64,000 bases of DNA, taken from positions 3,599,601-3,663,600 of the forward strand of contig NZ_JAFMZZ010000001.1 in NCBI RefSeq assembly GCF_017356245.1, given 5' to 3'. The DNA comes from Bordetella petrii (GTDB taxonomy: Bacteria; Pseudomonadota; Gammaproteobacteria; Burkholderiales; Burkholderiaceae_B). Below, one piece after another: positions 9,763 through 45,185 of this stretch. The notes under the pieces are model-generated. The model searched no databases. It was not told where the DNA came from and was given only the letters and a program-made list of their open reading frames with translations. Positions within the stretch are counted from its first letter, which is position 1, and the number at the start of each line of letters is the position of its first letter. Position numbers and translations under genes: made by a program.

Positions 9763-9849
9763 GGTGTCAGGCTCCGCAGGTGCCTGACACCATTGCGTGC
9801 CAAGACTGTCTCAGCCGCAGGATGTCAGGCACCTGCGGAGCCTGACACC
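9763..9849. repeat. Twin-hairpin (BIME-like) element A
   Basis: First hairpin 9763-9791: GGTGTCAGGC and GCCTGACACC around a 9-base loop. Second hairpin 9821-9849: GATGTCAGGC and GCCTGACACC. The loops (TCCGCAGGT and ACCTGCGGA) are exact reverse complements, so the two hairpins are inverted copies and the whole unit is one long palindrome around a 29-bp spacer. It lies between the convergent genes ending at 9747 and 9874. TGGCA follows on the right, as in elements D and E. Confidence 0.92.
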
Positions 9850-9873
9850 TGGCAGCAAGCCTGCCCGCCGCGC

Positions 9874-10707
9874 TCAAAAAGGCGAGTCCGGCTTGAAATC
9901 GGGCGGCCGCCGCTCACGCAGCGACTGGATGCCCTCGCGCACGTCGGGTCCGGCGAAGCCCATGAATTCCAGCGCCAGCGAAGCGTCGAAGCTGGGGCCG
10001 GCCAGCCGCAGCCAGTTGTTCAGCGCGTACTTGGTCCAGCGGATGGCCGTCTGCGATCCGTTGGCCAGCTTGCCCGCCACCTCGAATGCCTTGGCGATCA
10101 GTTCGGCTTCGTCCACGCACAGCGATACCAGGCCGATGCGCTCGGCTTCTTCGCCGCTGACGGCTTCGCACAGCAGCAGGTAATACTTGGCCTTGGCCAT
10201 GCCGCACAGCAGCGGCCACACGATGGCCGCATGGTCGCCCGCCGCCACGCCCAGGCGGGTGTGGCCGTCGATGATGCGGGCATCGCGCGCGGCGATCGAC
10301 ACGTCGGCCAGCAGGCCGGCCACCAGCCCCGCCCCCACGGCGGCGCCGTGCATGGCCGACACGATCGGCTTATTGCAGTTGATCACGTTGTAGACCAGGT
10401 CGCGCGCTTCGCGCCATACCCGCGCGCGCACCTGGAAGTCGTCGGCCATCTGCTGCACCAGTTCCAGGTCGCCGCCGCCGGAAAACCCCTTGCCTTCGCC
10501 GCGGATCACCACCACGCGCGTGTCCGGGTCGGTGTCCACGTCGCGCCAGATATCGGCCAGCTCGCGGTGCAACCGCTCGTCGGCGGTGGACAGCTTGCCC
10601 GGCACTCCGCCCCTGGCGCCCATGATGAGCTCCAGGATGCCCTGCGGATGGCGGCGCAGCTTCAGGGCTTGATAGTGCGCATAATGGTCGAGCGATGGTT
10701 CGGACAT
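9874..10707 (-). CDS. Crotonase family protein (enoyl-CoA hydratase-like)
   Basis: A 277-residue crotonase-fold protein. It has an oxyanion-hole segment [20 protein letters not shown] near residue 120, but the catalytic Glu pair of hydratases is absent: [11 protein letters not shown] lacks the first Glu, and [11 protein letters not shown] carries Asp/His where the second Glu would sit. A hydrolase or isomerase role is therefore possible. The start at 10707 has a GGGAG ribosome site 7 bases upstream; the in-frame extension beyond it is low-complexity. The gene is alone on its strand, converging on the 8986-9747 crotonase. Confidence 0.87.
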
Positions 10708-10743
10708 GGTCTGCTCCCGGAAGTGATGCTCAGGCTTTCCGGG

Positions 10744-10753
10744 CACTATAGTG
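10744..10753. promoter_or_regulatory. Palindromic -10 candidate between divergent genes
   Basis: CACTATAGTG is a perfect 10-bp palindrome, so TATAGT reads as a -10 on both strands in the 81-bp gap between the crotonase and nnrD genes. No strong -35 is seen on either side. Confidence 0.35.
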
Positions 10754-10788
10754 GATAGCCTTGCCAGCCCGCAGCCCGGAAACCCGCC

Positions 10789-11643
10789 ATGTCCGCCGCC
10801 CCCGCGCCCGCCCCCATTCTCCGCCAGGATCTGCCGGCCCTGTTCGCGCCGCGCCCGGCCGATGCCCACAAGGGCACCTTCGGCACCGTGGCGGTGGTGG
10901 GCGGCGGCGCCGGGATGGCCGGAGCCGCCCTGCTGGCCGCGCGCGCGGCCCTGAAAACCGGCGCCGGCAAGGTGCTGGTGGGCTTTGCCCAGGCCTCATG
11001 CCCGCTGGCGTGCGATCTTCTGCAGCCTGAATTGATGTTGCGCGATGCCGCCAGCCTGTACCAGGCCGGCCTGCCGGTCGATGCCTGGGTGGCCGGTTGC
11101 GGGCTGGGCACCGGCGGCCAGGCGCGGGCCGCGCTGGACGCGCTGTTCGCCCGCCGCGGCGGCGCGCCGCTGGTGCTGGACGCCGACGGCCTGAATCTGC
11201 TGGCCGCCGGCGCGCTGCCCGCCTGGGGCCCGGGGCCCGTGATCCTGACGCCGCATCCGGCCGAGGCCGCGCGGCTGCTGGGCACGGACGCCCAGGCCGT
11301 GCAGGCCGACCGCCCGGCGGCGGCCCGCGCGCTGGCCAGCCGCCATGGCGCCTGGGTGGTGCTCAAGGGTGCCGGCACCCTGGTGTGCCGGCCCGACGGC
11401 CTGTGCCGCCGCAATATCACCGGCAATGCCGGGCTGGCAACGGCCGGCACCGGCGATGTCCTGGCCGGGATGCTGGGCAGCCTGCTCGCCCAGGGCATGG
11501 CGCTGGACCAGGCGGTGGCGGGCGCCGTCTGGCTGCATGGGGCGGCCGCCGACGCCCGGGTGGCGGCGGGCATCGGCCCCATCGGTTTGACGGCCGGCGA
11601 GCTGGCCGACGCCGCCCGACAGTTGCGAAATGGCCACGGATAA
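10789..11643 (+). CDS. nnrD: ADP/ATP-dependent NAD(P)H-hydrate dehydratase
   Basis: A 284-residue YjeF C-terminal-domain (ribokinase-like) protein that repairs hydrated NADH and NADPH with ADP or ATP. Family motifs are present: [13 protein letters not shown] at the start, [11 protein letters not shown] near 125, [13 protein letters not shown] near 149, and [18 protein letters not shown] near 211, whose GTGD carries the catalytic Asp. The epimerase (YjeF N-terminal) domain common in fused forms is absent, so the partner must be encoded elsewhere. The next gene has its own promoter 30-60 bp downstream. Confidence 0.9.
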
Positions 11644-11656
11644 CCGCCGTTACAAC

Positions 11657-11665
11657 TTATCCACA
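11657..11665 (+). promoter_or_regulatory. Perfect DnaA box
   Basis: TTATCCACA matches the strong DnaA consensus exactly. It stands 9 bases upstream of the -35 of the promoter for the small gene at 11740, so it may tie that gene to DnaA. It could also be chance. Confidence 0.45.
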
Positions 11666-11673
11666 GATTCATG

Positions 11674-11703
11674 TTGCATTGCACTTAGGGTTATCCCTAT
11701 AAT
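11674..11703 (+). promoter_or_regulatory. Sigma-70 promoter of small gene 11740-11973
   Basis: TTGCAT (11674-11679), 18-bp spacer, perfect TATAAT (11698-11703). The predicted start near 11710 leaves a leader of about 30 bases before the ribosome site. Confidence 0.7.
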
Positions 11704-11739
11704 GGTTTACCCCATGACGAAACGGACTGGAGAGAAACC

Positions 11740-11973
11740 ATGAGCGAACTGACCCTGAACACCAATGCCCGCCTGACCGATGCGCTGGAACGCGACCTGC
11801 TTCGCGGCGCGATGGAAAGCCAACCGAATGCCCAACCCCTGGTGCTGCTGAAGCAGGCCGGTGCCGCGATCGCCCGCGCTGTCGGCGCCTTCGCCGACTA
11901 CGTCGCCGAAGTGCACGAAGCCATGAATCGCGCCCGCGCCGCCAGCGCCCGCTACGCCGGTTCGCAGTGGTAA
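11740..11973 (+). CDS. Small hypothetical protein, 77 residues
   Basis: I do not recognise the family. The gene looks real: good promoter, GGAGAG ribosome site 7 bases before ATG, and strong hairpins after the stop. The product is soluble and mostly helical, with an N-terminal half rich in charged residues (LTDALERDLLRGAMESQ) and a middle alanine-rich helix (GAAIARAVGAFADYVAEVHEAMNRARAA) that could pack as a coiled coil. It has no signal peptide, membrane segment or cysteine. It stands alone between nnrD and an ABC binding protein, each with its own signals. Confidence 0.75.
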   Translation: MSELTLNTNARLTDALERDLLRGAMESQPNAQPLVLLKQAGAAIARAVGAFADYVAEVHEAMNRARAASARYAGSQW

Positions 11974-11985
11974 TTGCCCTCCGGC

Positions 11986-12019
11986 TTGCCGCCCTACCCT
12001 GAAAAGGGCCGGGCGGCAA
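11986..12019 (+). other. Nested hairpin after small gene
   Basis: TTGCCGCCC (11986-11994) pairs with GGGCGGCAA (12011-12019), and inside it CCCT-gaaa-AGGG forms a GNRA-like capped inner stem. No T-run follows directly; it may protect the mRNA 3' end. Confidence 0.6.
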
Positions 12020-12044
12020 AGCTATACGCGTCTTGCGCGTGCCC

Positions 12045-12086
12045 AAGGCGCCGCACCCCGAAGCGGGGCGCGGCGCCTTGTTGTTT
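12045..12086 (+). terminator. Strong intrinsic terminator-like hairpin
   Basis: Sixteen-base arms (12045-12060 and 12064-12079) pair with one mismatch around an AAG loop, followed by GTTGTTTCT. Together with the hairpin at 11986 it closes the small-gene transcript before the promoter at 12134. Confidence 0.8.
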
Positions 12087-12133
12087 CTGGCCGCCAGGCC
12101 ATCTTGCTGCGGCGCAATACCTAACTGTGCGCA

Positions 12134-12163
12134 TTGACAACGCACGAAGCGGCTTCCGATAAT
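12134..12163 (+). promoter_or_regulatory. Sigma-70 promoter of first ABC binding-protein gene
   Basis: Perfect TTGACA (12134-12139), 18-bp spacer, GATAAT (12158-12163, 5/6). The start near 12170 leaves a leader of about 75 bases. Confidence 0.7.
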
Positions 12164-12243
12164 CGCCCCCTTGTCACGATTGATTGCATCTGACGGCACC
12201 CTGCCGGCAGCCACGCAATCCATCCCGTCGACCCGGAGCCTTC

Positions 12244-13863
12244 ATGAAATTGCGTACTTCCCTGGCCCTGCTGGCGGCCAGCGCCGGCCTGGCCGCCGCC
12301 CCCGCCGTCCTGGCCCAGTCCCTGACCATCGCCCTGTCGTCCGAACCGACCTCTGCCGACCCGCACTATCACAAGCAGACGCAGAACGACGCGTTCGCCG
12401 CCCATGTCTACGACTCGCTGATCTACCGCGGCCCCGACATGAAGCTCAAGCCGGGCCTGGCCACGTCATGGAAGAACCTGGACGACCTGACCTGGGAGCT
12501 GAAGCTGCGCGAAGGCGTGAAGTTCTCGAACGGCGAGCCCTTCACCTCGCAGGACGTGCTGTTCTCGGTGTGCCGCACCCTGAACAACAAGACCAACATC
12601 TCGCAGTCGTACATGACGGTGACCAAGCTGCTGACCGACGTGCAGACGCCCGACGCGCACACGGTCATCCTGAAAACCGCCGAGCCCTTCCCGCTGATGC
12701 CGGCCGAACTGGCGCGGCAGCTGCCCATCATCTGGAACGGCATCGTCGAGCACGGCCCGCTGAAGTTCGCCCCCAAGGAAGGCTGCGGCGTGACCGGCCC
12801 GTGGCCCACGGTGGCCGATTTCAACAACGGCAAAGACGCCATCGGCACCGGCCCGTACAAGCTGAAATCGTACGTGAAGGGCACCGGCATCGAGCTCGAG
12901 CGCAACGAAGGCTACTGGGGCGACAAGCCGCAATGGAAAACGGTGAAATTCGTGCCCGTGCCCAACGCCGGCCCGCGCCTGACCGGCCTGCTGTCGGGCG
13001 ACTTCGACGTCATCGAGAACCCGGCCGCGCGCGACTTGCCGCGCCTGAAGGAAAACGGCAATTTCGGCTACGTGGCCACGCCCTCGACCCGCCTGGTCTT
13101 CTTCCAGCCCGACGTGGGCCGCAACCCCAGCCCGTTCGTCAAGAGCCCCGACGGCAAGAACCCGCTGCAGGACCTGCGCGTGCGCCGTGCCATCAACATG
13201 GCCATCGACCGCAAGACCATCAATGCGCGCATCATGGACGGCCTGGCGACCCCGGCCTACCAGTACATGCCCGACGGCATGTTCGGCGCGCTGCCCAAGG
13301 CGCCCGAGATCAAGTACGACCCGGAAGGTGCCAAGAAGCTGCTGGCCGAGGCCGGCTACCCCGATGGCTTCGAACTGACCCTGTCGTCCACCAACAACCG
13401 CTACGTGAACGACGGCCAGGTGACGCAGGCCGTGGCCCAGTACCTGTCGCGCATCGGCATCAAGACCCACGTCGACGCAATGACCGCCTCGATCTACTTC
13501 CCCAAGCGCGCCAAGCGCGAGTTCAGCTTCGCCATGGGCGGCTGGCCGGCCGAAACCGGCGAAGCGTCGGCGCTGTTCCAGCTGTGGGTCGCCTCGACCG
13601 ACTCGGCCCGCAGCCTGGGCACCAGCAACTACGGCGGCTTCTCGAACGCCGAGTTCGACAAGGTGTACGAGCAGGCCATCGTGACGGTCGACCCGGAAAA
13701 GCGCGAGAAGCTGCTGCAGCAGTCCACGCAGATCGCCCTGGACAACCTGCCGCTGATTCCGCTGCACTTCGAAAGCAGCATCTGGGCGTTCCGCAAGGGC
13801 CTCACCTACGAAGGCCGGCGCGACCAGTACACGCTGGCCATGTCGGTGCATTCGGCGAAGTAA
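12244..13863 (+). CDS. Peptide-type ABC transporter substrate-binding protein (copy 1)
   Basis: A 539-residue family 5 periplasmic binding protein (DppA/OppA type). The Sec signal peptide is about 25 residues long and ends AVLAQ. It is followed by LTIALSSEPTSADPHYH, the usual family opening, and a C-terminal GLTYEGRRDQYTLAMS. ATG 12244 has CGGAG 5 bases upstream. It has its own promoter and is followed by a twin-hairpin element, so it is transcribed alone. It is a close paralogue of the binding protein at 16253-17875, which sits with a permease operon; the two probably share that permease and differ in ligand. Confidence 0.93.
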   Translation: MKLRTSLALLAASAGLAAAPAVLAQSLTIALSSEPTSADPHYHKQTQNDAFAAHVYDSLIYRGPDMKLKPGLATSWKNLDDLTWELKLREGVKFSNGEPFTSQDVLFSVCRTLNNKTNISQSYMTVTKLLTDVQTPDAHTVILKTAEPFPLMPAELARQLPIIWNGIVEHGPLKFAPKEGCGVTGPWPTVADFNNGKDAIGTGPYKLKSYVKGTGIELERNEGYWGDKPQWKTVKFVPVPNAGPRLTGLLSGDFDVIENPAARDLPRLKENGNFGYVATPSTRLVFFQPDVGRNPSPFVKSPDGKNPLQDLRVRRAINMAIDRKTINARIMDGLATPAYQYMPDGMFGALPKAPEIKYDPEGAKKLLAEAGYPDGFELTLSSTNNRYVNDGQVTQAVAQYLSRIGIKTHVDAMTASIYFPKRAKREFSFAMGGWPAETGEASALFQLWVASTDSARSLGTSNYGGFSNAEFDKVYEQAIVTVDPEKREKLLQQSTQIALDNLPLIPLHFESSIWAFRKGLTYEGRRDQYTLAMSVHSAK

Positions 13864-13887
13864 GCGCCGCCGGGCAGATCGGGGCAA

Positions 13888-13979
13888 GGTGTCCGACTCC
13901 CGGCAGGGTGTCGGACACCGAAGTGTGCGCAGGCCGCCTCAACAGAACGGTGTCTGACACCCTGCGGGAGTCAGACACC
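13888..13979. repeat. Twin-hairpin (BIME-like) element B
   Basis: First hairpin 13888-13919: GGTGTCCGAC and GTCGGACACC around 12 bases. Second hairpin 13949-13979: GGTGTCTGAC and GTCAGACACC around 11 bases. The two loops are reverse complements apart from one base. The spacer 13920-13948 is 29 bp. Stem bases differ from element A at paired positions in a compensatory way. A T-rich run (TTTTCTTTTT) follows on the right. It lies between convergent genes ending at 13863 and 13994. Confidence 0.9.
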
Positions 13980-13993
13980 TTTTCTTTTTCCGT

Positions 13994-14902
13994 CTACGGC
14001 AAAGTCGCCTCGACTTCGTCGATGCGCGCCTTCAGGTGTTCGATGAAGCGCGCCACGCCGGGCGGCAGCAGCCGCCCTTCCATGGTCTGGATCTGCAGAT
14101 TGCGCGATTGCAGTTCGGCACTGACCACGGGCCGCGCCACCAGGCCGTCCTGCGCCAGGCGCCAGGCCACCGAAATATAGCCGGCGAACATCACGGCGTT
14201 GGAATGGCGCACGAAGCCATGCAGCGCCGGTGAATAATTCGAGATCAGCGCCGCCTGCAGCTGCATGTCTTCCAGCGCGCAGGTGCGGTTGAGCAGGCGC
14301 CGCGCCGTGCTTTTGTCGTCGGTCAGCGCCAGCGGATAGGCCAGCACGTCTTCCAGGCACAGGCGGCTGCGTCCGGCCAGCGGGTGGGTGGCCGCCATCA
14401 CCGCATAGACCGGCGCGCGCCAGGAGTGCAGCACCGCCACGCCCTGGGCCGGCTCGACGTTGAACGACACCGACACGTCGATATCGCCGCTGGCGATCTG
14501 CCGCATGGACTCGGGAGGCGTCAGCACGTGCAGCGAGAACCGCGTGCGCGGGTGCTGCTGCCGGAAATCCACCATGGCCACCGGCAGGAAGCCCTGCGCG
14601 GGCCCTTCCGACGCCCCCACCCGGATCTCGTCATGCGGCGTGCCTTGCAGGCCGGCGATCTGCCTCAGCACTTCATCCGATTCCAGCAGGGTGCGCCGCG
14701 CATGCGCCAGCAGCAGCCGCCCGGCCTGGCTCAGGGCCATGCCGCGCGGCGCCCGCTCGAACAGCGGCGCGCCCACCTCTTCCTCCAGGCGGGCGATCTG
14801 GCGGCTGATGGCCGATACCGCCACGTGCAACTGCTTCGAGGCGCCGCTCAGACTGCCGGCCTGGGCCACCGCCACGAAGTACTTCAGCGAAATTCCATGC
14901 AT
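13994..14902 (-). CDS. LysR family transcriptional regulator
   Basis: A 302-residue LysR-type regulator. The N-terminal winged helix-turn-helix reads YFVAVAQAGSLSGASKQLHV, then SAISRQIARLEEEVGAPLFER, both at their usual places (residues 8-50). The remainder is the periplasmic-binding-like effector domain, with GASEGPAQGFLPVAMVDF opening it. ATG 14902 gives the normal family N-terminus. It diverges from the aspartoacylase/ABC transporter operon starting at 15210, so it probably controls that operon in response to the transported compound or a breakdown product. Confidence 0.93.
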   Translation of the reverse strand: MHGISLKYFVAVAQAGSLSGASKQLHVAVSAISRQIARLEEEVGAPLFERAPRGMALSQAGRLLLAHARRTLLESDEVLRQIAGLQGTPHDEIRVGASEGPAQGFLPVAMVDFRQQHPRTRFSLHVLTPPESMRQIASGDIDVSVSFNVEPAQGVAVLHSWRAPVYAVMAATHPLAGRSRLCLEDVLAYPLALTDDKSTARRLLNRTCALEDMQLQAALISNYSPALHGFVRHSNAVMFAGYISVAWRLAQDGLVARPVVSAELQSRNLQIQTMEGRLLPPGVARFIEHLKARIDEVEATLP

Positions 14903-15209
14903 GGTGTCGTACCCATCCCGTGGGGCCGGCCGGGGGCATGGCCCATTGCGTTGCTTTGCCAAAAAGGCAAATAGTGTCTCAAATATTCTAATTGCCGAGA
15001 AAGCTGACCCGCTCCTAGAATCTGCCTCAAGATAAGAATCGGCATCGCGCCAGCCTCGCAGCTGGCGGCTCGCCCAGGGGGAAATGTGTTCCTGGCTGCC
15101 AAACGGCCCGCCGTCGCCCGGCGGCCCCGCCTCCTGCGCGCGCTGCGCTGCGTGCCGCCGCGCCCTGCGCCGCCGGCGTGCCGATGTGTCCCTTGTTTGT
15201 GGAGCGCCC
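14903..15209. promoter_or_regulatory. Divergent regulatory region with LysR-type dyad
   Basis: This 307-bp gap between the LysR gene and the aspartoacylase-like gene holds no gene I can support. At 14955-14971 TTTGCC-AAAAA-GGCAAA is a perfect dyad containing the LysR pattern T-N11-A, and the stretch 14950-15035 is clearly more AT-rich than its surroundings, fitting promoters there. The right half (15040-15209) is GC-rich with no further clear signal. Confidence 0.5.
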
Positions 15210-16193
15210 ATGTCTACGCCTGATGCCGCAGCCCCGCTGCGCCCGTTTGAACTCGCCTGTCCGGATTTGTCGGCCGAGCGCCTGGGCAACACCGACACGC
15301 CGGGCGTGTGGCACTTCGATTCGGGCGCGCCGGGCAGGCACGTGATGCTGACGGCGCTGATCCACGGCAACGAACTGTGCGGCGCCTGGGCCCTGAAAAC
15401 ACTGCTGGCCAGCGGACTGCGGCCGCGCCATGGCGCGCTGACACTGGCGTTCTGCAACCTGGCGGCCTTCGACCGCTTCGACCCCGCCAACTACCTGCCG
15501 GCGCGCTTTGTCGACGAAGACATGAACCGGGTCTGGAGCGACGACAAGCTGGCCGACCCGTCCTCCCAGGAACGCCGGCGCGCCGCCGCGCTGCGGCCCT
15601 GGGTGGCCCGGGCCGACTGGCTGATGGACTTCCATTCGATGAGCAATTCCGACGTGCCGCTGCAGCTCACCGGCCTGCAGCCACGCAACATCGAACTGGC
15701 GCTGCAGCTGGGCACGCCGGCCAACATCATCGCCGACGCCGGCCATGCCGCCGGCGTGCGCATGCGCGACTACGGCCGCTTCGGCGCCGGCGGCGGCGAC
15801 GGCACGCGCTCGCTGCTGATCGAATGCGGCTTTCACGGCGCGCCGCAGGCGCGCGACGTGGCGATAGACCAGATGGCCCGCTTCCTGGTGGCTGCCGGCA
15901 CGTTCGCGCGCGACGACCTGCCCGCCGATTGGTTCGCGCCCGATGCGCCGCGCCAGCAGGCGCTGCGCGTCACGCATGCCATTGCCGCCCAGAGCGCCGA
16001 CGTGCGCTTCGCGCAACGCTGGCGCGGGCTGGAACAGCTGCCGCGGGCCGGCACGCTGCTGGGCTGGAATGCCGGCGAACCCTTCGTCACCCCGTACGAC
16101 GACTGCGTGCTGATCATGCCGTCGCTGGCCAATGTGCGCCCGGGCGTGACCGTGCTGCGCCTGGCCCAGCCCATCGCCCAGGCCGGCGGCTGA
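15210..16193 (+). CDS. Aspartoacylase/succinylglutamate desuccinylase family hydrolase
   Basis: A 327-residue zinc carboxypeptidase-like hydrolase of the aspartoacylase family, which removes N-acyl groups from amino acids. The zinc ligands fit HGNE (LIHGNELCGAW, near residue 52) and the later His in WLMDFHSMSN near 144; IECGFHG near 208 matches the end of the catalytic core. The start at 15210 has GGAG about 6 bases upstream. It is the first gene of the operon, 59 bp before a periplasmic binding protein. This suggests that the transporter brings in an N-acylated or amide-linked amino acid that this enzyme opens. The actual substrate is unknown. Confidence 0.85.
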   Translation: MSTPDAAAPLRPFELACPDLSAERLGNTDTPGVWHFDSGAPGRHVMLTALIHGNELCGAWALKTLLASGLRPRHGALTLAFCNLAAFDRFDPANYLPARFVDEDMNRVWSDDKLADPSSQERRRAAALRPWVARADWLMDFHSMSNSDVPLQLTGLQPRNIELALQLGTPANIIADAGHAAGVRMRDYGRFGAGGGDGTRSLLIECGFHGAPQARDVAIDQMARFLVAAGTFARDDLPADWFAPDAPRQQALRVTHAIAAQSADVRFAQRWRGLEQLPRAGTLLGWNAGEPFVTPYDDCVLIMPSLANVRPGVTVLRLAQPIAQAGG

Positions 16194-16252
16194 GCCTCCC
16201 TGATTTCGCGGTACCGACAACGAAAGCCCTACGCTCCCAGGAGAAAACATCC

Positions 16253-17875: not shown

Positions 17876-17917
17876 GGCCGGCCGGTTGTTTTCGCAAGAC
17901 CCCAAGGAACGCACAAC

Positions 17918-22748: not shown

Positions 22749-23879
22749 ATGTCATCCCTGCCCTCCACCGAAGCACTCGTCGCCGGCATCCAATCGTGGG
22801 TGCGCTGCGAATCGCCATCCAACTCGCCGCAAGGCGTGGCCGCCATGGCCGCCCTGGTCGAGACGCAGGCGCGCGCCGCCGGCCTGACGGTCGAAGTCAC
22901 GCCGCTGGGGCCGGACACGGGCCCGCTGCTGTACGCCACCAACCGCGCGGCCGGCGACACGCGTCCCGGCATTCTGGTGCTGGCGCACCTGGATACGGTG
23001 CATCCCATCGGCACGCTGCAGGACAACCCCTGCCGCATCGAAGGCGACCGCCTGTACGGCCCCGGCAGCTACGACATGAAGGGCGGCATCTATCTGGCGC
23101 TGGCCGCCCTGTCCACGCTGGCGCAGCCCGGCAGCACGCGCCTGCCGGTGGATTTCCTGATGGTGCCCGACGAAGAGATCGGCAGCCATGCCTCGCGCGC
23201 CTCGATCGAACGCTACGCGGCCAACGCCAAGTACGGCCTGGTGTGCGAGCCGGCCCGCCCCAACGGCGGCAAGTGCGTCACCGCCCGCAAGGGCACCGGC
23301 ATGCTGCGCCTGAACGTCAAGGGCCGTCCGGCCCACGCCGGCATGCAGCACGAAAAAGGCCGCAGCGCCATTCGAGAAATGGCCCATCAGGTGCTGGCGC
23401 TGGAAGCCATGACCGACTACGAGCGCGGCGTAACCGTCAGCGTGGGCACCATCGCCGGCGGCACGGTCACCAACACGGTGCCGGCGCAATGCCGCTGCGT
23501 GGTCGATTTCCGCGTGCCCGACATGGGCGCGGCCGAAGACGTGCTGCGCCGCATGCGCAACCTGTGCGCGGTGGGGCCGGATGTGGAACTGGACATCGAC
23601 GTCGAACTCAACCGGCCGCCCATGGTGCGCAGCGACGCGGCCGCCGCGCTGCTGGCGCTGGCGCAGGAATACGCGCGGGAAGCCGGCTTCGCACTGGAAG
23701 AAGCCCCCATGACGGGCGGCGGCAGCGACGCCAACTTCACCTCGGCCATGGGCGTGCCCACGCTGGACGGCCTGGGCGCCGACGGCGACGGCGCGCACAC
23801 CCTGCACGAGTACATCCTGGTGTCCACCCTGCAAACCCGCGCGAAGTTCTGGGAACTGCTGCTGCGCGAACTGGCATAA
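22749..23879 (+). CDS. M20 family metallopeptidase (carboxypeptidase G2-like)
   Basis: A 376-residue M20 peptidase. Metal and catalytic residues are visible: LAHLDTVHPIG near residue 80 (His and Asp), GSYDMKGG near 112 (bridging Asp), PDEEIGSHAS near 142 (catalytic Glu pair), and DGDGAHTLHEY near 347 (last His). There is no signal peptide, so it acts in the cytoplasm. CPG2-like enzymes cut C-terminal Glu or related amides. It is the last gene of the ABC operon; a half twin-hairpin repeat follows. ATG 22749 gives the family N-terminus; the long frame to the left is a shadow. Confidence 0.9.
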   Translation: MSSLPSTEALVAGIQSWVRCESPSNSPQGVAAMAALVETQARAAGLTVEVTPLGPDTGPLLYATNRAAGDTRPGILVLAHLDTVHPIGTLQDNPCRIEGDRLYGPGSYDMKGGIYLALAALSTLAQPGSTRLPVDFLMVPDEEIGSHASRASIERYAANAKYGLVCEPARPNGGKCVTARKGTGMLRLNVKGRPAHAGMQHEKGRSAIREMAHQVLALEAMTDYERGVTVSVGTIAGGTVTNTVPAQCRCVVDFRVPDMGAAEDVLRRMRNLCAVGPDVELDIDVELNRPPMVRSDAAAALLALAQEYAREAGFALEEAPMTGGGSDANFTSAMGVPTLDGLGADGDGAHTLHEYILVSTLQTRAKFWELLLRELA

Positions 23880-23916: not shown

Positions 23917-23945
23917 GGTGTCAGGCACCTGCGGAGCCTGACACC
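23917..23945. repeat. Half twin-hairpin element C
   Basis: A single hairpin, GGTGTCAGGC (23917-23926) and GCCTGACACC (23936-23945) around ACCTGCGGA. It equals the second hairpin of element A except that the A there is G here, which restores perfect pairing. The spacer and first hairpin are missing. TGGCG follows. It lies between convergent genes ending at 23879 and 23959. Confidence 0.9.
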
Positions 23946-23958: not shown

Positions 23959-26016
23959 TTATTTCTTCAGCAGCGCCTTCAGCATGCCCAGGCGCTCTTT
24001 GGGGCTCATGGCGCGGGTGGCCTCGTCTTCCTGCACGGGGATGTCGCCCAGCCCCATCTCTTCGATGAAGCGCGAAGGCTCGCGCACCATGTCTTCGCGG
24101 GCGCGGCGCCGCTTCTTGCACCAGCTCAGGTTCAGGCTGCGCTGCGCGCGCGTGATGCCCACGTACATCAGCCGCCGCTCTTCCTGGATGCGGGTGGCCA
24201 GGTTCTCGGCCGCGCGCGCCGGGTCGCCGTCTTCGTCATCCTTGCCCAGGTGCGGCAGCAGGCCCTCTTCCACGCCGGCCAGGTACACGTGCGGATACTC
24301 CAGCCCCTTGGACGCGTGCAGCGTCGACAGCTTGACCGCGTCGGGCTCTTCTTCTTCGCCGCGTTCCAGCATGGTGATCAGCGCCACGTGCTGCACCAGG
24401 TCGAACAATGACATGCCGTCTTCCTCGGCCTTGCGCTTGAGCCAGCCGGTGAGCTCCAGCACGTTTTCCCAGCGCGTCTGGGCCGGCTTTTCTTCCAGTG
24501 TGTCGTACAGGTAGCGCTCGTACTGGATGGCCCCCAGCATGTCGTCCAGGATGGCGCCGGCCGGCTCGGCCGAGCCCTGGCCGTCGGTGCGGCCACGCCC
24601 CGCGCGCCACTGGATGCGGCGGATGAACTCGGCAAAGGTGCGCAGCGAATCCAGCTGGCGCGGCTGCAGCAGGCTTTCCAGGCCGGTTTCGGCCACTGCG
24701 GCCAGCAGCGACACCTCGCGCTGCGCGGCATACTGCCCCAGCACCTGCAGCGTGGCCTGGCCGATGCCGCGCTTGGGCGTGGTGGCGGCGCGGATGAAGG
24801 CCGGGTCGTCGTCGTCATTGGCGATCAGGCGCAGGTACGACAGAATATCGCGCACCTCGGCCTTGTCAAAGAAACTTTGTCCGCCGGCGATGGTGTACGG
24901 AATCTTCAGGTTGCGCAGCGCCTGTTCCAGAATGCGCGACTGATGATTGCCGCGATACAGAATGGCGAAGTCTTTCCATTGCGCCTGCCGCTCGAACCGG
25001 GCCGCCGAGATTTTCATGGCGATCGACTGGGCTTCGTGCTCGTCGTTTTCCATCGGCGACACCAGAATGGGTTCGCCCACGCCCAGGTCCGACCACAGTT
25101 TCTTTTCGAACAGCTTGGGGTTTTTTTCGATGACCGTGTTGGCCGCCGCCAGGATGCGCTGCACCGAGCGGTAATTCTGTTCCAGCTTGATCAGCTTGAG
25201 CTGCGGATAATCGGTGGTGAGCTTGGCCAGGTTCTCGATGGTGGCGCCGCGCCAGGCGTAGATAGCCTGGTCGTCGTCGCCCACCGCGGTGAACATCGCG
25301 CGGTCGCCGCACAGCAGCTGCACCAGCCGGTACTGGCACACGTTGGTATCCTGGTATTCATCCACCAGCAGGTAGCGCACACGGTTCTGCCAGCGGGTGC
25401 GCACCGCTTCGTTGCTTTCCAGCAGCTGCGCCGGTATGCGGATCAGGTCGTCGAAGTCCACGGCCTGGTAGGCCGCCAGGGTGGCGCTGTAGCTGCGGTA
25501 CACATTGGCCGCCTCGACCTCGCCGGGCGTGGCGGCGGTGCGCGCCGCGTCGTCGGGGCCAAGCAGCGCGTTCTTCCACAGCGAAATAATCGACTGCACC
25601 GCGCGCAGCCGGCCGCGGTCGGTGGTGGCCAGAAGCTCCTGGATGATCGCCATGGCGTCGTCCGCATCCAGGATGGAAAACTGCGGCTTCAGCCCCGCCT
25701 GGCGCGCTTCTTCGCGCAGCAGCCTGACGCCCAGCGAATGGAAGGTGCTGATGGTCAGGCCCTTGGCCAGCTTGCGGTCGACCAGCGTCTTGACGCGCTC
25801 GTCCATCTCGCGCGCCGCCTTGTTGGTGAAAGTCAGCGCCACGATATTGCGGCCCATGTAGCCGCATTCGCGCAGCAGGTAGGCGATTTTCTGCGTAATG
25901 ACGCGCGTCTTGCCGCTGCCCGCGCCGGCCAGCACCAGGCACGGGCCGTCCAGGTACAGCACGGCTTCTTTCTGGGCGGGGTTCAGGCCGTGGCCTATGG
26001 GTGCGCTGTCGGACAT
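23959..26016 (-). CDS. rep: ATP-dependent DNA helicase Rep (UvrD/Rep superfamily 1)
   Basis: A 685-residue 3'-5' DNA helicase. Motif I is AGAGSGKT near residue 31, followed by LTFTNKAAREM and STFHSLG; motif II is VDEYQDTN near 219; then GDDDQAIYAWRGA (III), LEQNYRS (IV), LSTLHASKGLEYPHV (V) and RRLMYVGITRAQ (VI). The length fits Rep (about 670-690) rather than UvrD (about 720). Rep clears proteins ahead of the fork and helps restart. It begins 3 bp after the priA stop on the same strand, a sensible pairing of two restart proteins. Confidence 0.93.
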   Translation of the reverse strand: MSDSAPIGHGLNPAQKEAVLYLDGPCLVLAGAGSGKTRVITQKIAYLLRECGYMGRNIVALTFTNKAAREMDERVKTLVDRKLAKGLTISTFHSLGVRLLREEARQAGLKPQFSILDADDAMAIIQELLATTDRGRLRAVQSIISLWKNALLGPDDAARTAATPGEVEAANVYRSYSATLAAYQAVDFDDLIRIPAQLLESNEAVRTRWQNRVRYLLVDEYQDTNVCQYRLVQLLCGDRAMFTAVGDDDQAIYAWRGATIENLAKLTTDYPQLKLIKLEQNYRSVQRILAAANTVIEKNPKLFEKKLWSDLGVGEPILVSPMENDEHEAQSIAMKISAARFERQAQWKDFAILYRGNHQSRILEQALRNLKIPYTIAGGQSFFDKAEVRDILSYLRLIANDDDDPAFIRAATTPKRGIGQATLQVLGQYAAQREVSLLAAVAETGLESLLQPRQLDSLRTFAEFIRRIQWRAGRGRTDGQGSAEPAGAILDDMLGAIQYERYLYDTLEEKPAQTRWENVLELTGWLKRKAEEDGMSLFDLVQHVALITMLERGEEEEPDAVKLSTLHASKGLEYPHVYLAGVEEGLLPHLGKDDEDGDPARAAENLATRIQEERRLMYVGITRAQRSLNLSWCKKRRRAREDMVREPSRFIEEMGLGDIPVQEDEATRAMSPKERLGMLKALLKK

Positions 26017-36161: not shown

Positions 36162-36234
36162 GGTCGTTCCTTTAACACCTTGCGGCTCCGGACGCGTCAA
36201 GGGCGCCACGGAGCACTCGATACTTTGCCGGCAT

Positions 36235-36288: not shown

Positions 36289-36309
36289 CGTTGCCATGGA
36301 CCGTCGGGC

Positions 36310-36579
<270 letters not shown>

Positions 36580-36665
36580 TCAAATTGTAAGAAAACGGTA
36601 CTGCTAGGAATGCAAGAAAACCTTGCGCCCCGGGCGCGGGCGGCCTGCCCGCGCCAGGAATAGGG

Positions 36666-37547: not shown

Positions 37548-37617
37548 TTGAACCCTACCCTGTTTGCTATGTGGCCGGATCTTGCGAGCCGGCCGTTTAC
37601 ATGATCTTTTTAAGCAG

Positions 37618-38046: not shown

Positions 38047-38126
38047 CAGGCTTCCCCGCTCTTGCGGCAAAGACAGGCGCGGCAGGCTTACCGCGTGTTT
38101 TTATCCCGCAAGCGTCAAACTCGTAG

Positions 38127-38156
38127 AGTATAGCGTGATTCGTTTTGGTCGGGCAA
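38127..38156 (-). promoter_or_regulatory. Sigma-70 promoter of the atp operon
   Basis: On the minus strand TTGCCC (38156-38151), 18-bp spacer, TATACT (38132-38127). Transcription would start near 38120, giving a leader of about 75 bases before atpI. Confidence 0.65.
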
Positions 38157-38162
38157 ATGAAG

Positions 38163-38195
38163 AAACCGACGCCGGATCAGTCCGGCGCCGGTTTT
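38163..38195 (-). terminator. Intrinsic terminator of DUF1254 gene
   Basis: Thirteen-base arms (38164-38176 and 38181-38193, one mismatch) with a 4-base loop. On the minus strand it is followed by TTTCTTCATTT. It insulates the atp promoter directly downstream. Confidence 0.85.
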
Positions 38196-38227
38196 GCAAC
38201 ACGGCCGCAAGGCCGCCCCGGGCGGGG

Positions 38228-39790: not shown

Positions 39791-39987
39791 GGGGGGCTCC
39801 TTGTTCGTTGTTGGCAAACGAGCCAGCCATCCCGCCCGGAAGGGGATGGCCTTTTTCGGCATGACGCTGCTTCAGGATAGGCGCGGAAGCTGCAACAAGG
39901 TGAGATTTAAAGGTTACAGCCCGAAACCAACCGTCCATATTCCCCGCGCAATCCGTTTTTGTTCGCCGGGAGCCCGCGTAACAAGCG

Positions 39988-40764
39988 TTACTTGTGCCGG
40001 AAAGCCGGCGGGCGCTTTTCCATGAAGGCGGCCATGCCTTCTTTCTGGTCTTCGGTGCCGAACAGCGAATGGAACACGCGGCGCTCGAACAGCAGCCCTT
40101 CGTTCAGCGACGACTCGAAGGCGCGGTTGACGCATTCCTTGGCCATCATGACCGAGGGCAGCGACATCGAGGCAATGACAGTGGCGGCCTCGAGGGCTTC
40201 GTCCATCAGCTTGTCGGCCGGGACCACGCGCGATACCAGCCCGGCCCGCTCGGCTTCTTCGGCGCCCATCATGCGGGCGGTGAGGGCCAGGTCCATGGCC
40301 TTGGCCTTGCCCACCGCGCGGGGCAGGCGCTGCGTGCCGCCGGCGCCGGGAATGACGCCCAGCTTGATTTCCGGCTGGCCGAACCGGGCGGTGTCGGCGG
40401 CGATGATGATGTCGCACATCATGGCGAGCTCGCAGCCGCCGCCCAGGGCGTAGCCGGACACGGCCGCGATGACGGGCTTGCGGATGCGCTTGAGGGTTTC
40501 CCAGTTGCGGGTGATGTATTCGCTGCCATAGACGTCCATATAAGACCAATCTTTCATGGCGCCGATGTCTGCGCCGGCGGCGAACGCCTTCTCGCTGCCC
40601 GTGATGACCACCGCGCCGATGCCGTCGTCGGCTTCGAAAGCCAGCAGCGCGGCGCCCAGCTCATTCATGAGCTGGTCATTGAGCGCATTGAGCGCCTTGG
40701 GGCGGTTCAGCGTCAGCAGCCCGACGCGTCCACGGGTTTCGACCAGCACAAACGATTCGCTCAT
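39988..40764 (-). CDS. Enoyl-CoA hydratase
   Basis: A 258-residue crotonase with both catalytic Glu residues: [11 protein letters not shown] near 112 and [15 protein letters not shown] near 132, so a genuine short-chain enoyl-CoA hydratase is likely (compare the Glu-poor crotonases at 8986 and 9874). Oxyanion-hole Ala and Gly sit in [10 protein letters not shown] and GYALGGG. A palindrome GTAAC-AAGC-GTTAC at 39978-39991 overlaps its stop codon. It diverges from the M61 protease gene across only 46 bp. Confidence 0.94.
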
Positions 40765-40810
40765 GGGGATGTCTCCTGGAAAAATAAATGTAGGTCAGTA
40801 AGATAGCGCA

Positions 40811-42574
40811 ATGGACACCCCCGTAATTTACCGCCTAGAGCCCAGCGACCCCGCCGGCCATCGCTACCGCATCACCCTGACCGTGCCGCAGCCGGACCCC
40901 GACGGCCAGCGGCTGGCATTGCCGGCCTGGATTCCCGGCAGCTACCTGATCCGCGATTTCTCGCGCCAGGTCGAGACCTTGCAGGCACGGTCGGCCGGCC
41001 GCCCGGTCGCCGTCACCAAGCTCGACAACCACACCTGGCAAGCCGCGCCCTGCGCCGGCCCGCTGCAGATCGACTACACCGTCTACGCCTGGGACCTGTC
41101 CGTGCGCGGTGCGCACCTGGACGAGGCTCACGGCTTTTTCAACGGCACCAGTGTGTTCCTGCGGGTAGAGGGCCGCGAAAACGCGCCCTGCCTGCTGGAC
41201 CTGGCCCCGCCGCGCGGCATTGCCGGCTGGAAGGTCTACACCAGCCTGCCCGAGGCGCGCGGCCACGCCGGCGCGGCCCGCCGGCACGGCTTCGGCCTGT
41301 ACCGGGCCCCCGACTACGACGCGCTGATCGACCACCCCGTGGAAATGGGCACGCCCCAGGTGGCCCGCTTTACCGCGCACGGCGCCGAGCACGAACTGGT
41401 CTTCACCGGCGTGGCGCCCCGCCTCGACCTGAGCCGCATCGCCGCCGACGCGCGCCGCATCTGCGAAGCCCAGATCGCCTTCTTCGAGCCGCGCAGCAAG
41501 CGTGCGCCCTTCCTGGACAGCAGCGACCGCTATGTATTCATGACCATGGTGGTGGGCGACGGGCACGGTGGCCTGGAACACCGCGCCAGCACCGCGCTGA
41601 TGGCGTCGCGCAAAGACCTGCCGGTGCTGGGCCAGCAAGGCCAGGGCGAGGGCTATCGCGGCTTTCTGGGGCTGGTCAGCCATGAATACTTCCATACCTG
41701 GAACGTCAAGCGCATCAAGCCGGCCGCCTTCGCGCCCTACCATCTGCAGCAGCCCGACCTGACGCGGCTGCTGTGGGTGTTCGAGGGCTTCACGTCGTAC
41801 TACGACGACCTGATGCTGCTGCGCGCGGGCGCCATCGGCCTGACCGACTACCTGCGCCTGCTGGCCAAAACGATTACCAGCGTGGCGCGTTCGCCGGGGC
41901 GCCGCAAGCAGTCGGTGGCCGAAAGCTCGTTCGATGCCTGGACCCGCTACTACAAGCAGGACGAGAACTCGCCCAACGCGCTGGTCAGCTACTACACCAA
42001 GGGCGCGCTGGTGGCGCTGGGGCTGGACCTGACCATCCGGCGCGAGTCCGGCGGCGCGCGCTCGCTGGACGATGTCATGCGGCTGCTGTGGCAGCGCTAC
42101 GGCCGCGATTTCTATCGCGGCAAGGCGCAGGGCCTGCCCGAAGACGCCCTGCCCGCGCTGGTCCGCGAAGCCACCGGCGTGGATGTGCGGCGCTTCGTGG
42201 CGCGCCACGCCTACGGCACGGCCGACGTGCCGCTGGCCGAATTGCTGGCGCCGCACGGCGTCGGCCTGCACTGGAAGCCCACGGTCAACATCCCGTCGCT
42301 GGATGTGCGCACGCGCAAACAGGGCGATGCCCTGGCGCTGGCCACGGTGCTCGAGGGCGGCGCGGCCCACAAAGGCGGCCTGTCGGCCGGCGATGTGCTG
42401 GTGGCGGTCGACGGGCTGCGCGTGGATGCGCCGGCCGGGCTGGAGCTGCTGCTGGCGCAATACCGCGCCGGCGACCGCGTGACGGTGCACGTGTTCCGCC
42501 GCGACGAACTGCGCGCCTTCACTGTGCGGCTGGCCGCGCCGGCGGCGCTGGACTGCGTGCTGTCGGTAAAGTAG
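40811..42574 (+). CDS. M61 family metallopeptidase with PDZ domain
   Basis: A 587-residue M61 (glycyl aminopeptidase-like) peptidase. It has an N-terminal beta domain (LPAWIPGSYLIRDFSRQVE), the zinc motif HEYFH near residue 291 with HTWNVKRIKP after it, and the third ligand Glu in FEGFTSYYDDLML near 322. A C-terminal PDZ domain (about 490-565, GGLSAGDVLVAVDGLRVD) follows. No signal peptide is seen, so it should be cytoplasmic. Substrates are unknown. It is followed by twin-hairpin element D. Confidence 0.92.
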   Translation: MDTPVIYRLEPSDPAGHRYRITLTVPQPDPDGQRLALPAWIPGSYLIRDFSRQVETLQARSAGRPVAVTKLDNHTWQAAPCAGPLQIDYTVYAWDLSVRGAHLDEAHGFFNGTSVFLRVEGRENAPCLLDLAPPRGIAGWKVYTSLPEARGHAGAARRHGFGLYRAPDYDALIDHPVEMGTPQVARFTAHGAEHELVFTGVAPRLDLSRIAADARRICEAQIAFFEPRSKRAPFLDSSDRYVFMTMVVGDGHGGLEHRASTALMASRKDLPVLGQQGQGEGYRGFLGLVSHEYFHTWNVKRIKPAAFAPYHLQQPDLTRLLWVFEGFTSYYDDLMLLRAGAIGLTDYLRLLAKTITSVARSPGRRKQSVAESSFDAWTRYYKQDENSPNALVSYYTKGALVALGLDLTIRRESGGARSLDDVMRLLWQRYGRDFYRGKAQGLPEDALPALVREATGVDVRRFVARHAYGTADVPLAELLAPHGVGLHWKPTVNIPSLDVRTRKQGDALALATVLEGGAAHKGGLSAGDVLVAVDGLRVDAPAGLELLLAQYRAGDRVTVHVFRRDELRAFTVRLAAPAALDCVLSVK

Positions 42575-42584
42575 CGGCCGCCCA

Positions 42585-42675
42585 GGTGTCAGGCTCCGCC
42601 AGGTGCCTGACACCGCAGTACGCCGCGGCCGTCTCAGTCCCTACGGTGTCCGATACCCTGCGGGAGTCGGACACC
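42585..42675. repeat. Twin-hairpin (BIME-like) element D
   Basis: First hairpin 42585-42614: GGTGTCAGGC and GCCTGACACC, the element A type. Second hairpin 42645-42675: GGTGTCCGAT and GTCGGACACC, the element B type with a T-G pair. So D joins the two stem types. The spacer 42615-42644 is 30 bp and ends with TACGGTGTC as a junction. TGGCAA follows. It lies between convergent genes ending at 42574 and 42705. Confidence 0.92.
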
Positions 42676-42704
42676 TGGCAACAGCCCGGGATGGTTCGCC
42701 ATCT

Positions 42705-43601
42705 TCAGCCGGCGCCGCGCTCCCAGTGGCGCTGGATGGCCTTGGCGGCCACCACGCCATCGGCCAGCGAAGTCACCACGCAGGGGTGCATGCGGTGGGC
42801 GACCTCGCCGATGCCGTAGACGCCGGACACGCTGGCCTCGGCCGTGGCGGCATCGGTGCGTATATACCCGCGCGGGTCGCGCTGCAGGCCCAGGCCGTCG
42901 GCAAACGCGGCCTGCGGCTCCCAGCCGTAGAACACCAGAATCACGTCATAGGCCTGCCCATCCACCGTGCGCGCCGCGGGATCGACCCGGTAGGGGCCGA
43001 CCCGCACGCCGTCGCGGCCGGCCCGCGACACCCATTGCTGCTGGGCGCGCACGCTGCGGGCGTACAGATGCACGCTGCGCGCGCCCCGGTTGCGCACATA
43101 GACGAAGTTTTCATAGGCGTTGTCGCCGCCGCCCAGCACGGCCACCGACAGGCCGGTGTAGTCGTGCGCCATGATGGACGAGCCCGGCCCCACGAACACG
43201 CCGGGCCAGGCGGCGTCGGCGGGGTGGTCCGGCAGGCCGCGCGCGCGCACGCCCGAGGCGATTACCAGGGCCCGCCCCCGGACAGTGGCGCCGGCCCCGC
43301 CGGCGTCCAGATCGACTTCGAAACCGCCCTCGGCGCGCCGCGCCTGCCGCGCGGCCGTGCCCAGGCGCGCCGGTACACCGGCGGCCCGCACGCTGCTGGC
43401 GATATTGGCGGCCACCTGCTGGCCGGTAACGCCGGGCAGCACGGCGATCCAATCGTCGGCGAACGGATTGTCGTTGCCCAGCCCGCCCAGGCGCGGCCCG
43501 GCCTCGACCAGCAGCGGCGCCAGGCCCAGCCGGGCCAGCCAGATGGCGCACGAGGCCCCGGCCGGGCCGCCGCCCACGATCACTGCGTCGTATTGCTGCA
43601 T
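42705..43601 (-). CDS. FAD-dependent pyridine nucleotide oxidoreductase
   Basis: A 298-residue flavoprotein of the thioredoxin-reductase-like size class. The FAD dinucleotide fold is VIVGGGPAGASCAIWLARLG near residue 7, the NAD(P) fold is VAVLGGGDNAYENFVYV near 150, and VSGVYGIGEVAHR near 263 closes the FAD site. I see no redox-active CxxC, so it is not a thioredoxin reductase; a ferredoxin/flavodoxin reductase or a partner of an unknown acceptor is more likely. ATG 43601 gives the standard N-terminus. Confidence 0.85.
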   Translation of the reverse strand: MQQYDAVIVGGGPAGASCAIWLARLGLAPLLVEAGPRLGGLGNDNPFADDWIAVLPGVTGQQVAANIASSVRAAGVPARLGTAARQARRAEGGFEVDLDAGGAGATVRGRALVIASGVRARGLPDHPADAAWPGVFVGPGSSIMAHDYTGLSVAVLGGGDNAYENFVYVRNRGARSVHLYARSVRAQQQWVSRAGRDGVRVGPYRVDPAARTVDGQAYDVILVFYGWEPQAAFADGLGLQRDPRGYIRTDAATAEASVSGVYGIGEVAHRMHPCVVTSLADGVVAAKAIQRHWERGAG

Positions 43602-43656
43602 AGTCTGTCGTATTCCGTGTGGCAATGCCGTGCGCCGCGCGGGCGCATCAGGCGGA

Positions 43657-43687
43657 TTGTAGCCAGGGGCCCCACCCGCCTTACAAT
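43657..43687 (+). promoter_or_regulatory. Putative sigma-70 promoter of folB-ttcA
   Basis: TTGTAG (43657-43662), 19-bp spacer, TACAAT (43682-43687). Spacing is one or two bases long, so strength may be modest. Confidence 0.45.
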
Positions 43688-43714
43688 TCCGGTTCTCTCT
43701 TCCAGGTATTCATC

Positions 43715-44083
43715 ATGCCTACACGCCGCATCATCCTTTCCGGACTGGCGCTGGATGCCCGCATCGGCATTCTCGAACACGAGCGCAGGGCCACCCAGCC
43801 GCTGCACATCGATGCCGAGTTCGACGTGGACATCACCCGCAGCGTCGATGACCACGACATCCACAGCGTGCTCGACTACCGGCGGCTGCGCGAGGCCATT
43901 GTCGAAGAATGCACCCAGGCGCACGTGAACCTGATCGAAACGCTGACCGAACGGGTCGCGGCCCGCCTGCTGCGCGATTTCGACGAGGTACGCGCGCTGC
44001 GGCTGCGCATCAGCAAGCCCATGGCGTTCTCGGACTGCGCCGCAGTGGGCGTGGAAATCCAGCTCAATCGCCAGGCCGGCTGA
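43715..44083 (+). CDS. folB: Dihydroneopterin aldolase
   Basis: A 122-residue folate-pathway enzyme that splits dihydroneopterin to hydroxymethyl-dihydropterin and glycolaldehyde. Active-site text is visible: [10 protein letters not shown] near residue 14 (Glu), HSVLDYRRL near 50, [11 protein letters not shown] near 73, and [10 protein letters not shown] near 97 with the catalytic Lys. It starts at ATG 43715 after TTCCAGGTATTC and is followed by ttcA after 8 bp, so the two are co-transcribed. Confidence 0.94.
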
Positions 44084-44091
44084 CTCTGACC

Positions 44092-45066
44092 ATGCAAGAC
44101 CTTATCGACACCCCCATCGCCGCGCGCACGCCGGCCGAAGAAAAAATCCGCCACGAAGGCAACAAGCTGTCCAAGCGGCTGGCGCGCGAAACCACCCGCG
44201 CCATCGCCGACTACAACATGATCGAAGCGGGCGACCGGGTCATGGTGTGCCTGTCGGGCGGCAAGGATTCCTACGCGCTGCTGGACATCCTGCTCAGCCT
44301 GCGCAAGCGCGCGCCGTTCTCGTTCGACATCGTGGCGGTCAACCTGGACCAGAAGCAGCCCGGCTTTCCGCCCGATGTGCTGCCCGCCTACCTGACGTCG
44401 CTGGGCGTGCCTTTCCATATCGAGACGCAGGACACGTATTCGATCGTGACCCGCGTGATACCCGAAGGCAAGACCATGTGCTCGCTGTGCTCGCGGCTGC
44501 GGCGCGGCATTCTGTACCGCGTGGCGGGCGAACTGGGCGCCACCAAGATCGCCCTGGGCCACCACCGCGACGACATCCTGGCCACGTTCTTCCTGAACCT
44601 GTTCTACGGCGGCAAGGCCAAGGCCATGCCGCCCAAGCTGGTCTCGGACGACGGCCGCCACACCGTGATCCGGCCGCTGGCCTACGTGCCCGAACACGAC
44701 CTGGTGGCGTATGCCCGGTTCAAGCAGTTTCCGATCATTCCGTGCAATCTGTGCGGCTCGCAGGAAAACCTGAAGCGCCAGGAAGTGGCGCGCATGATCC
44801 GCGACTGGGACCGCCAGCACCCGGGCCGTTCCTGGAACGTATTCAATGCCCTGTCGCGCGTCGTGCCATCGCACCTGATGGACCGCGACCTGTTCGACTT
44901 CGCGGGGCTGAAGCCGTCGGGCGTGCCGGACGCCAACGGCGACACGGCGTTCGATCCGGTCGATCCGGAAGATCCGCAAGCCGAAGCGGGCGGCGCCTGT
45001 GCCGACGGCCCTGCCGGCGGCGACTCGGCCATGACGGAACAGAAAGTGGTGTTTGCCAGACTGTAG
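44092..45066 (+). CDS. ttcA: tRNA 2-thiocytidine synthetase TtcA
   Basis: A 324-residue enzyme that puts sulfur on C32 of certain tRNAs using ATP and an iron-sulfur cluster. The PP-loop is [14 protein letters not shown] near residue 54. The cluster cysteines are in [11 protein letters not shown] near 129 and [14 protein letters not shown] near 219. The C-terminal tail after LKPSGVPDA is acidic and Ala-rich, likely unstructured. It ends 32 bp before twin-hairpin element E. Confidence 0.96.
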
Positions 45067-45098
45067 GCCCGCGGCCGCCAGCTGCCTGGCCGGGGCCA

Positions 45099-45185
45099 GG
45101 TGCCTGACTCCGAAGGTGTCAGACACCGTGCTGTTGAAACAGTCGTTGCACACTTCGGTGTCTGACACCTTCGGGGTCAGACACC
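45099..45185. repeat. Twin-hairpin (BIME-like) element E, spacer inverted
   Basis: First hairpin 45099-45127: GGTGCCTGAC and GTCAGACACC (one mismatch). Second hairpin 45157-45185: GGTGTCTGAC and GTCAGACACC. The spacer 45128-45156, read on the other strand, matches the element B spacer at 22 of 29 places (shared GAAGTGTGC and TCAACAG), so E is the same element in reverse. Flanks GCCAGG on the left and CCTGGCA on the right extend the inverted ends. It lies between convergent genes ending at 45066 and 45198. Confidence 0.92.

Follow-up and report, generated by a model that had tools for sequence, protein, structure and literature searches.

A REP-type family of twin hairpins concentrated between convergent genes of Bordetella petrii, where its transposase gene seems to have been lost

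The stretch of DNA analysed here (the window) is 64,000 nucleotides of a Bordetella petrii genome, G000, which comprises 4.95 Mb in 14 contigs and is 99.84% complete. It carries five copies of a short repeat, each in a gap between convergent genes. The usual unit of the repeat is a twin of about 89 bp, in which a hairpin with a T.T mismatch is followed by a conserved 29-bp spacer and an inverted hairpin with an A.A mismatch. Our analysis points to a REP (repetitive extragenic palindrome) family that seems to have been orphaned in G000, with the hairpins kept and their transposase seemingly lost. The five window elements and their flanking genes are as follows.

9763-9849: twin element; hairpin 9763-9791 (T.T mismatch), 29-bp spacer, hairpin 9821-9849 (A.A mismatch); between convergent enoyl-CoA hydratase/isomerase genes at 8986-9747 (+) and 9874-10746 (-)
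13888-13979: twin element; hairpins 13888-13919 and 13949-13979, 29-bp spacer; between a solute-binding protein gene at 12244-13863 (+) and a LysR gene at 13994-14902 (-)
23917-23945: single hairpin of the A.A type; between an M20 peptidase gene at 22845-23879 (+) and a UvrD-like helicase gene at 23959-26016 (-)
42585-42675: twin element; hairpins 42585-42614 and 42645-42675, 30-bp spacer; between convergent genes at 40811-42574 (+) and 42705-43601 (-)
45099-45185: twin element in reverse orientation; hairpins 45099-45127 and 45157-45185, 29-bp spacer; between convergent genes at 44092-45066 (+) and 45198-46169 (-)

A previous inspection of the window from its letters alone (the sequence-only reading) had described these five elements, with spacers of 29-30 bp in the full copies, and both points held on measurement: four of the five are twins, their spacers measuring 29, 29, 30 and 29 bp, and the fifth (23917-23945) is a single hairpin. 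It had also found the window copies confined to convergent gaps, where all nine window hairpins (≤1 mismatch) indeed lie. Its ten convergent junctions became nine with our own gene calls; five are occupied and two others measure about 10 bp, as it had stated. The window has 30 occurrences of the start motif GGTGTCNG, where 10.1 are expected; none of 100 dinucleotide-preserving shuffles had as many. Folded as RNA, the twins at 9763, 13888 and 45099 each form a single long stem from both halves; the halves of the twin at 42585, whose stems are mismatched to each other, fold separately. The copy at 13888 resembles an intrinsic terminator on the + strand, because TTTTCTTTTT directly follows its right hairpin. 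A known RNA family was considered and rejected, the sole Rfam match in the window at gathering scores being a tRNA gene at 1843-1914 (-).

We compared G000 with eight relatives, which together form a genus set of nine genomes: G171 (B. petrii BT1), G141 (B. petrii MY10), G053 (B. genomosp. 7), G081 (B. genomosp. 2), G156 (Bordetella sp. BOR01), G015 (Bordetella sp. 02P26C-1), G123 and G103. A family set of 200 genomes includes 191 outside the window's genus. Gap statistics for G000 were taken from the window together with 60 stretches of 20 kb, 1.264 Mb in total (hereafter, the sample), with genes called by our own codon-based script. Hairpins were placed and counted at no more than one mismatch to the pattern, a threshold at which the reversed-sequence control gave 0, 1, 0 and 0 matches in G000, G123, G171 and G053, respectively; a looser search (≤3 mismatches) gave 275 matches against 110 in reversed sequence and was not used for counts.

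Across the 4.95 Mb of G000 there are 300 exact matches to the hairpin pattern, and none to its reversed form. Of the 99 near-exact hairpins in the sample, convergent gaps hold 54, same-strand gaps 36, divergent gaps 1 and called genes 8; by eye, four of the eight in called genes are chance-like, and the remainder may be in mis-called genes. With lengths of 28-33 bp, and 91 of the 99 outside called genes, the hairpins are mostly extragenic palindromes of the kind that defines REPs and BIMEs (bacterial interspersed mosaic elements). Elements occupy 32 of 155 convergent, 20 of 812 same-strand and 1 of 161 divergent gaps (odds ratio 10.3, p = 1.6e-14 for convergent versus same-strand; odds ratio 41.6, p = 4e-10 for convergent versus divergent; p = 0.23 for same-strand versus divergent). 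The convergent preference and near absence from divergent gaps noticed in the window persist when the window is left out (27/145, 20/770 and 1/151), and convergent occupancy exceeds same-strand occupancy in all four gap-length classes once element length is subtracted. Counted per 3′ end, with a convergent gap offering two, convergent junctions are still about four times richer. The further claim of the sequence-only reading, that copies are found, insert or survive only between convergent genes, fails genome-wide, given the 36 of 99 hairpins in same-strand gaps: the bias is strong, tenfold over same-strand gaps, and not exclusive.

In same-strand gaps the element lies closer to the upstream stop codon than to the downstream start in 20 of 20 cases in G000, and closer to the upstream 3′ end in 5/7, 6/6 and 5/6 cases in G123, G171 and G053. 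Occupied convergent, same-strand and divergent gaps number 9/59, 7/274 and 0/56 in G123, 11/41, 6/193 and 0/41 in G053, and 2/15, 6/97 and 0/16 in G171, the last not significant. RAYT-bearing relatives also contain tandem clusters, with up to 17 hairpins per gap in the G123 sample and up to 11 in that of G053; the G000 sample has a maximum of 3 in any one gap.

The sample contains 38 neighbouring pairs of hairpins, in keeping with an arrangement in inverted pairs: 25 have the order T.T then A.A, and 27 have a spacer of 29 bp. These 27 spacers share one asymmetric core, 14 in forward and 13 in reverse orientation, with a mean of 21.5 matches out of 29 compared with 8.3 when shuffled, an effect size that is inflated because the reference was made from the same copies. 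All 12 such spacers in G123, tandem copies among them, have one orientation. The consensus TGG is found both at the outer ends (T 85, G 78, G 65 of 114) and at the 3′ foot of A.A hairpins (T 63, G 60, G 46 of 69), and on the A.A strand the 5′ foot usually takes the form [C/G]T[A/T]C, whose final C is present in 59 of 69. Watson-Crick pairing at stem positions 7 and 9, both variable, is better preserved inside each hairpin than between the two hairpins of a twin in G000 (129/136 versus 70/136), G123 (47/48 versus 9/48) and G171 (31/32 versus 12/32), and therefore the single hairpin is the better-kept unit in three of the four genomes compared. Another family of palindromes, larger in size and bounded by TTCTTCTGGCG / CGCCAGAAGAA, was observed in two loci (L117, about 15126-15727; L132, about 13174-13935) and in BOR01 at the junction corresponding to window position 45066; of its end motifs in the G000 sample, 7 fall in convergent gaps, 2 in same-strand gaps and 1 in a called gene.

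A resemblance to BIMEs had been suggested from the window, together with a search for a REP-associated tyrosine transposase (RAYT). Such a gene with the present hairpin on both sides is found in six of the eight other genus genomes, that is, in all six repeat-rich relatives, and none is found in G000. Exactly one RAYT accompanies the repeats in G171 (867 hairpins), G053 (456), G123 (357), G141 (243), G081 (100) and G156 (85), and there is none in the repeat-poor G015 (0 hairpins) and G103 (1). Four of the five genus RAYT proteins scanned pass the NCBIfam RAYT model (cut-off 80 bits), and the fifth scores 77.4 bits. Because all six RAYT genes are hairpin-flanked and the five proteins scanned score at or near this cut-off, the repeat is, on sequence evidence, a REP family with a cognate RAYT. 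The RAYT frame of G053 has one internal stop, despite the 456 hairpins of that genome. Across the family set, RAYT-type proteins occur in several genomes outside the genus, and 46 of all 200 have a Y1_Tnp match; each of the 191 genomes outside the genus has at most 4 exact hairpins. Among the genomes searched, the repeat family is restricted to Bordetella petrii and its near kin.

G000 has no Pfam match to a Y1 transposase or RAYT, and searching with a RAYT of the genus (E up to 10) yields nothing beyond one chance-level match and a distant homologue that lacks the catalytic motifs. The RAYT of G123 and G053 has a hydrolase gene on one side and an ABC-ATPase gene on the other (both named by eye); for G171 the hydrolase side agrees, and the contig stretch examined ends beyond the RAYT. 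Both neighbours are present in G000, 90 and 92% identical to those of G123, and the interval between them holds 183 bp of REP debris, compared with about 1,449 bp including the RAYT in G123. The RAYT neighbours in G141, G156 and G081 do not match this site. A UvrD gene tree places G000 as sister to G123 (support 100/99), with deeper branches unresolved. Loss of the RAYT in the G000 lineage is the simplest reading of these comparisons.

The distant homologue (locus L067, 1315-2052 (-); G000:C4:918768-919505) is 30% identical to the query over residues 95-231. The HUH histidines are missing in all 31 aligned rows (30 loci, that of G000 counted twice), and Trp replaces the catalytic Tyr in the 30 rows displayed of these 31. 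It has no Pfam match, scores 15.4 bits on the NCBIfam RAYT model and has matches in 153 of the 200 family genomes, repeat-poor ones included. It is possibly a domesticated, inactive transposase.

Sampled junctions were compared across genomes; the comparisons share junctions and are not independent, and one junction is the RAYT site itself. Convergent junctions with an element in G000 also carry one in RAYT-bearing relatives in 19 of 28 comparisons, as against 3 of 19 for those without one in G000. Same-strand junctions occupied in G000 are matched in 2 of 10 comparisons, six of which concern one deliberately added junction beside the distant homologue. At divergent junctions neither side is occupied in 53 comparisons, and the repeat-poor G015 and G103 have no element in their three comparisons with occupied junctions. 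Subtype and copy number often vary between genomes at the same junction, and degenerate copies are present at some junctions scored as empty. At the 9763 junction BOR01 has a twin in the same place with its spacer reversed, and at 45099 the G123 spacer is reversed relative to the window copy; spacer orientation differs in 3 of 5 classifiable comparisons, which both inversion in place and repeated insertion fit. At the 13888 junction, 21 of 21 Achromobacter rows have a hairpin and a T run (by eye), Bordetella petrii kin have REPs, and an unrelated long hairpin is present in Bordetella sp. 02P26C-1. The sequence of BOR01 (L207) shows there a short remnant that resembles two outer ends joined, with the inside deleted.

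A RAYT is a single-strand DNA transposase related to those of IS200/IS605. We consider it probable (roughly 0.75) that the repeats are REPs belonging to the RAYT of the genus, which copied them in trans and was then deleted, and that the copies persist after stop codons. In this reading the RAYT would have copied twin units and would later have been removed, probably by recombination between its flanking repeats. Copies would survive chiefly just after stop codons, where neither promoters nor operons are broken, and convergent gaps would be the safest places of that kind.

Several observations weigh against this reading. The inferred RAYT loss depends on a single assembly, in 14 contigs, and on a tree built from one gene, in which the deeper branching order is not resolved. 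The usual GTAG / CGTC tag is the consensus at neither hairpin foot (69 A.A hairpins, 114 outer ends). In G053, where one subtype is dominant, pairing is equally good within hairpins (167/184) and across the twin (161/184). Finally, decay after RAYT loss is not seen in the fractions of intact copies: hairpins with 0/1/2 mismatches number 77/14/6 in G000, 35/5/3 in G123, 15/2/0 in G171 and 58/8/2 in G053 (reversed control, 0/0/2, 0/1/0, 0/0/1 and 0/0/0), and the loss would therefore be recent or the copies kept by something else. The split of G000 is too recent for mismatch fractions to decide on decay. Possibly, although we think it unlikely, the host took over the hairpins as gene ends after the RAYT was lost; the orphan REPs would then be under selection hairpin by hairpin, with the conserved spacer as part of the signal and a common mRNA ending for convergent genes.

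The twins might instead be working two-way terminators, kept or recruited by the host between convergent genes in place of U-tract terminators; shared two-way transcription stops were one of the two roles proposed by the sequence-only reading. The tenfold convergent preference fits such a role, as do the Achromobacter hairpins with T runs where Bordetella petrii kin have REPs, the T run after the window copy at 13888 and, in G123, an excess of strict intrinsic terminators in REP-bearing over REP-free convergent gaps (3/13 versus 1/38, p = 0.046). This last comparison runs in the opposite direction in G000 (5/32 versus 14/51, p = 0.29), and in G053 the counts are 2/15 and 0/17 (p = 0.21). These figures come from a strict scan, adopted because a looser one scored 41 of 158 divergent gaps. 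Only 5 of 114 outer ends have a U-tract behind them (≥5 T within 8 bases), which leads us to reject U-tract termination as a general rule and implies that most copies are not classical terminators; the combination of GC-rich hairpin and U-tract is absent from the family as a whole and present in the single copy at 13888-13989. With more than a third of sampled hairpins in same-strand gaps (36/99), and BOR01 lacking an exact element at 3 of 4 compared junctions occupied in G000, two-way termination as a general rule does not hold up, and we regard this explanation as decidedly unlikely. REPs of E. coli are generally held to slow exonucleases or to lower read-through as 3′ RNA structures. A 3′ RNA structure of this kind may be the role left for the present hairpins, combined with avoidance of promoters and operon interiors; the mRNA 3′ protection proposed from the window is possible. 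Under the reading of RAYT-copied REPs, the hairpin in RNA would likewise act as a 3′ structure, a barrier to 3′ exonucleases or a partial block to read-through, and in most copies its role would be other than that of a U-tract terminator.

Targeting by the transposase, for example to supercoiled or single-stranded DNA, could also produce the convergent bias in place of survival after random insertion. The higher occupancy in relatives at junctions occupied in G000, often with different subtypes and numbers, agrees with this, and among gaps shorter than 40 bp (element subtracted) 9 of 71 convergent and 2 of 271 same-strand gaps are occupied. Old insertions inherited by descent would leave the same pattern, however, in junction comparisons that are not independent, and selection against promoter damage accounts just as well for the scarcity in divergent gaps and the proximity to stop codons; we judge targeting to be quite unlikely as the source of the bias. 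That a RAYT exists in G000 and was missed at an assembly break is conceivable for a genome in 14 contigs, but very improbable: the assembly is 99.84% complete, the Pfam and genus-query searches agree, and the site of the G123 and G053 RAYT lies inside a G000 contig and is empty.

The preferred reading, of REPs copied by a RAYT since deleted, has close counterparts in the literature. 'REPtrons', REP/BIME repeats with their RAYT in E. coli, Pseudomonas and Stenotrophomonas, are alike in several respects: their palindromes are short, number in the hundreds, form inverted pairs and have a mismatched stem; they lie after stop codons in convergent and same-strand gaps; and the RAYT is flanked by its own repeat (PMC3733652, PMC2817692, PMC8266576). 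Published REPs prefer convergent and same-strand gaps near stop codons (PMC3733652, PMC1525189), RAYT loss by deletion is reported for many E. coli strains (PMC3733652), and GTAG and mismatched stems matter for RAYT recognition (PMC8266576). The present family differs in having TGG outer ends and no GTAG/CGTC tag, a conserved spacer, and a RAYT lost in G000. REPINs share the inverted REP pair as a unit, and three of the four window twins similarly fold into one long hairpin, but REPIN spacers are described as short and highly diverse, whereas 27 of our 38 pairs have a 29-bp spacer of shared sequence (PMC3116915, PMC8049555). G000 and G123 further differ from REPINs in keeping pairing within each hairpin rather than across the pair. 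Intrinsic two-way terminators are alike in placing a strong hairpin in convergent gaps and unlike in their U-tracts. 'Bor' repeats of B. bronchiseptica, B. parapertussis and B. pertussis are untagged REP-like stem-loops of 26-30 bp near coding regions (PMC1590033); they are likened here by description only, and the limit of 4 present hairpins per genome outside the genus speaks against identity, if the Bor species are among the 191 sampled. Among open-licence PMC papers we found no description of the present family, its RAYT, the conserved spacer or the orphan state.

The finding adds a REP family that lacks the usual tags and has a conserved spacer found in both orientations. It also provides a natural before-and-after pair, with about 300 REP hairpins without a transposase in G000 and the same repeats with a mapped RAYT in its sister. 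Whether REPs persist through copying by a RAYT or through use by the host is therefore a question that this orphan strain and its RAYT-bearing sister make testable.

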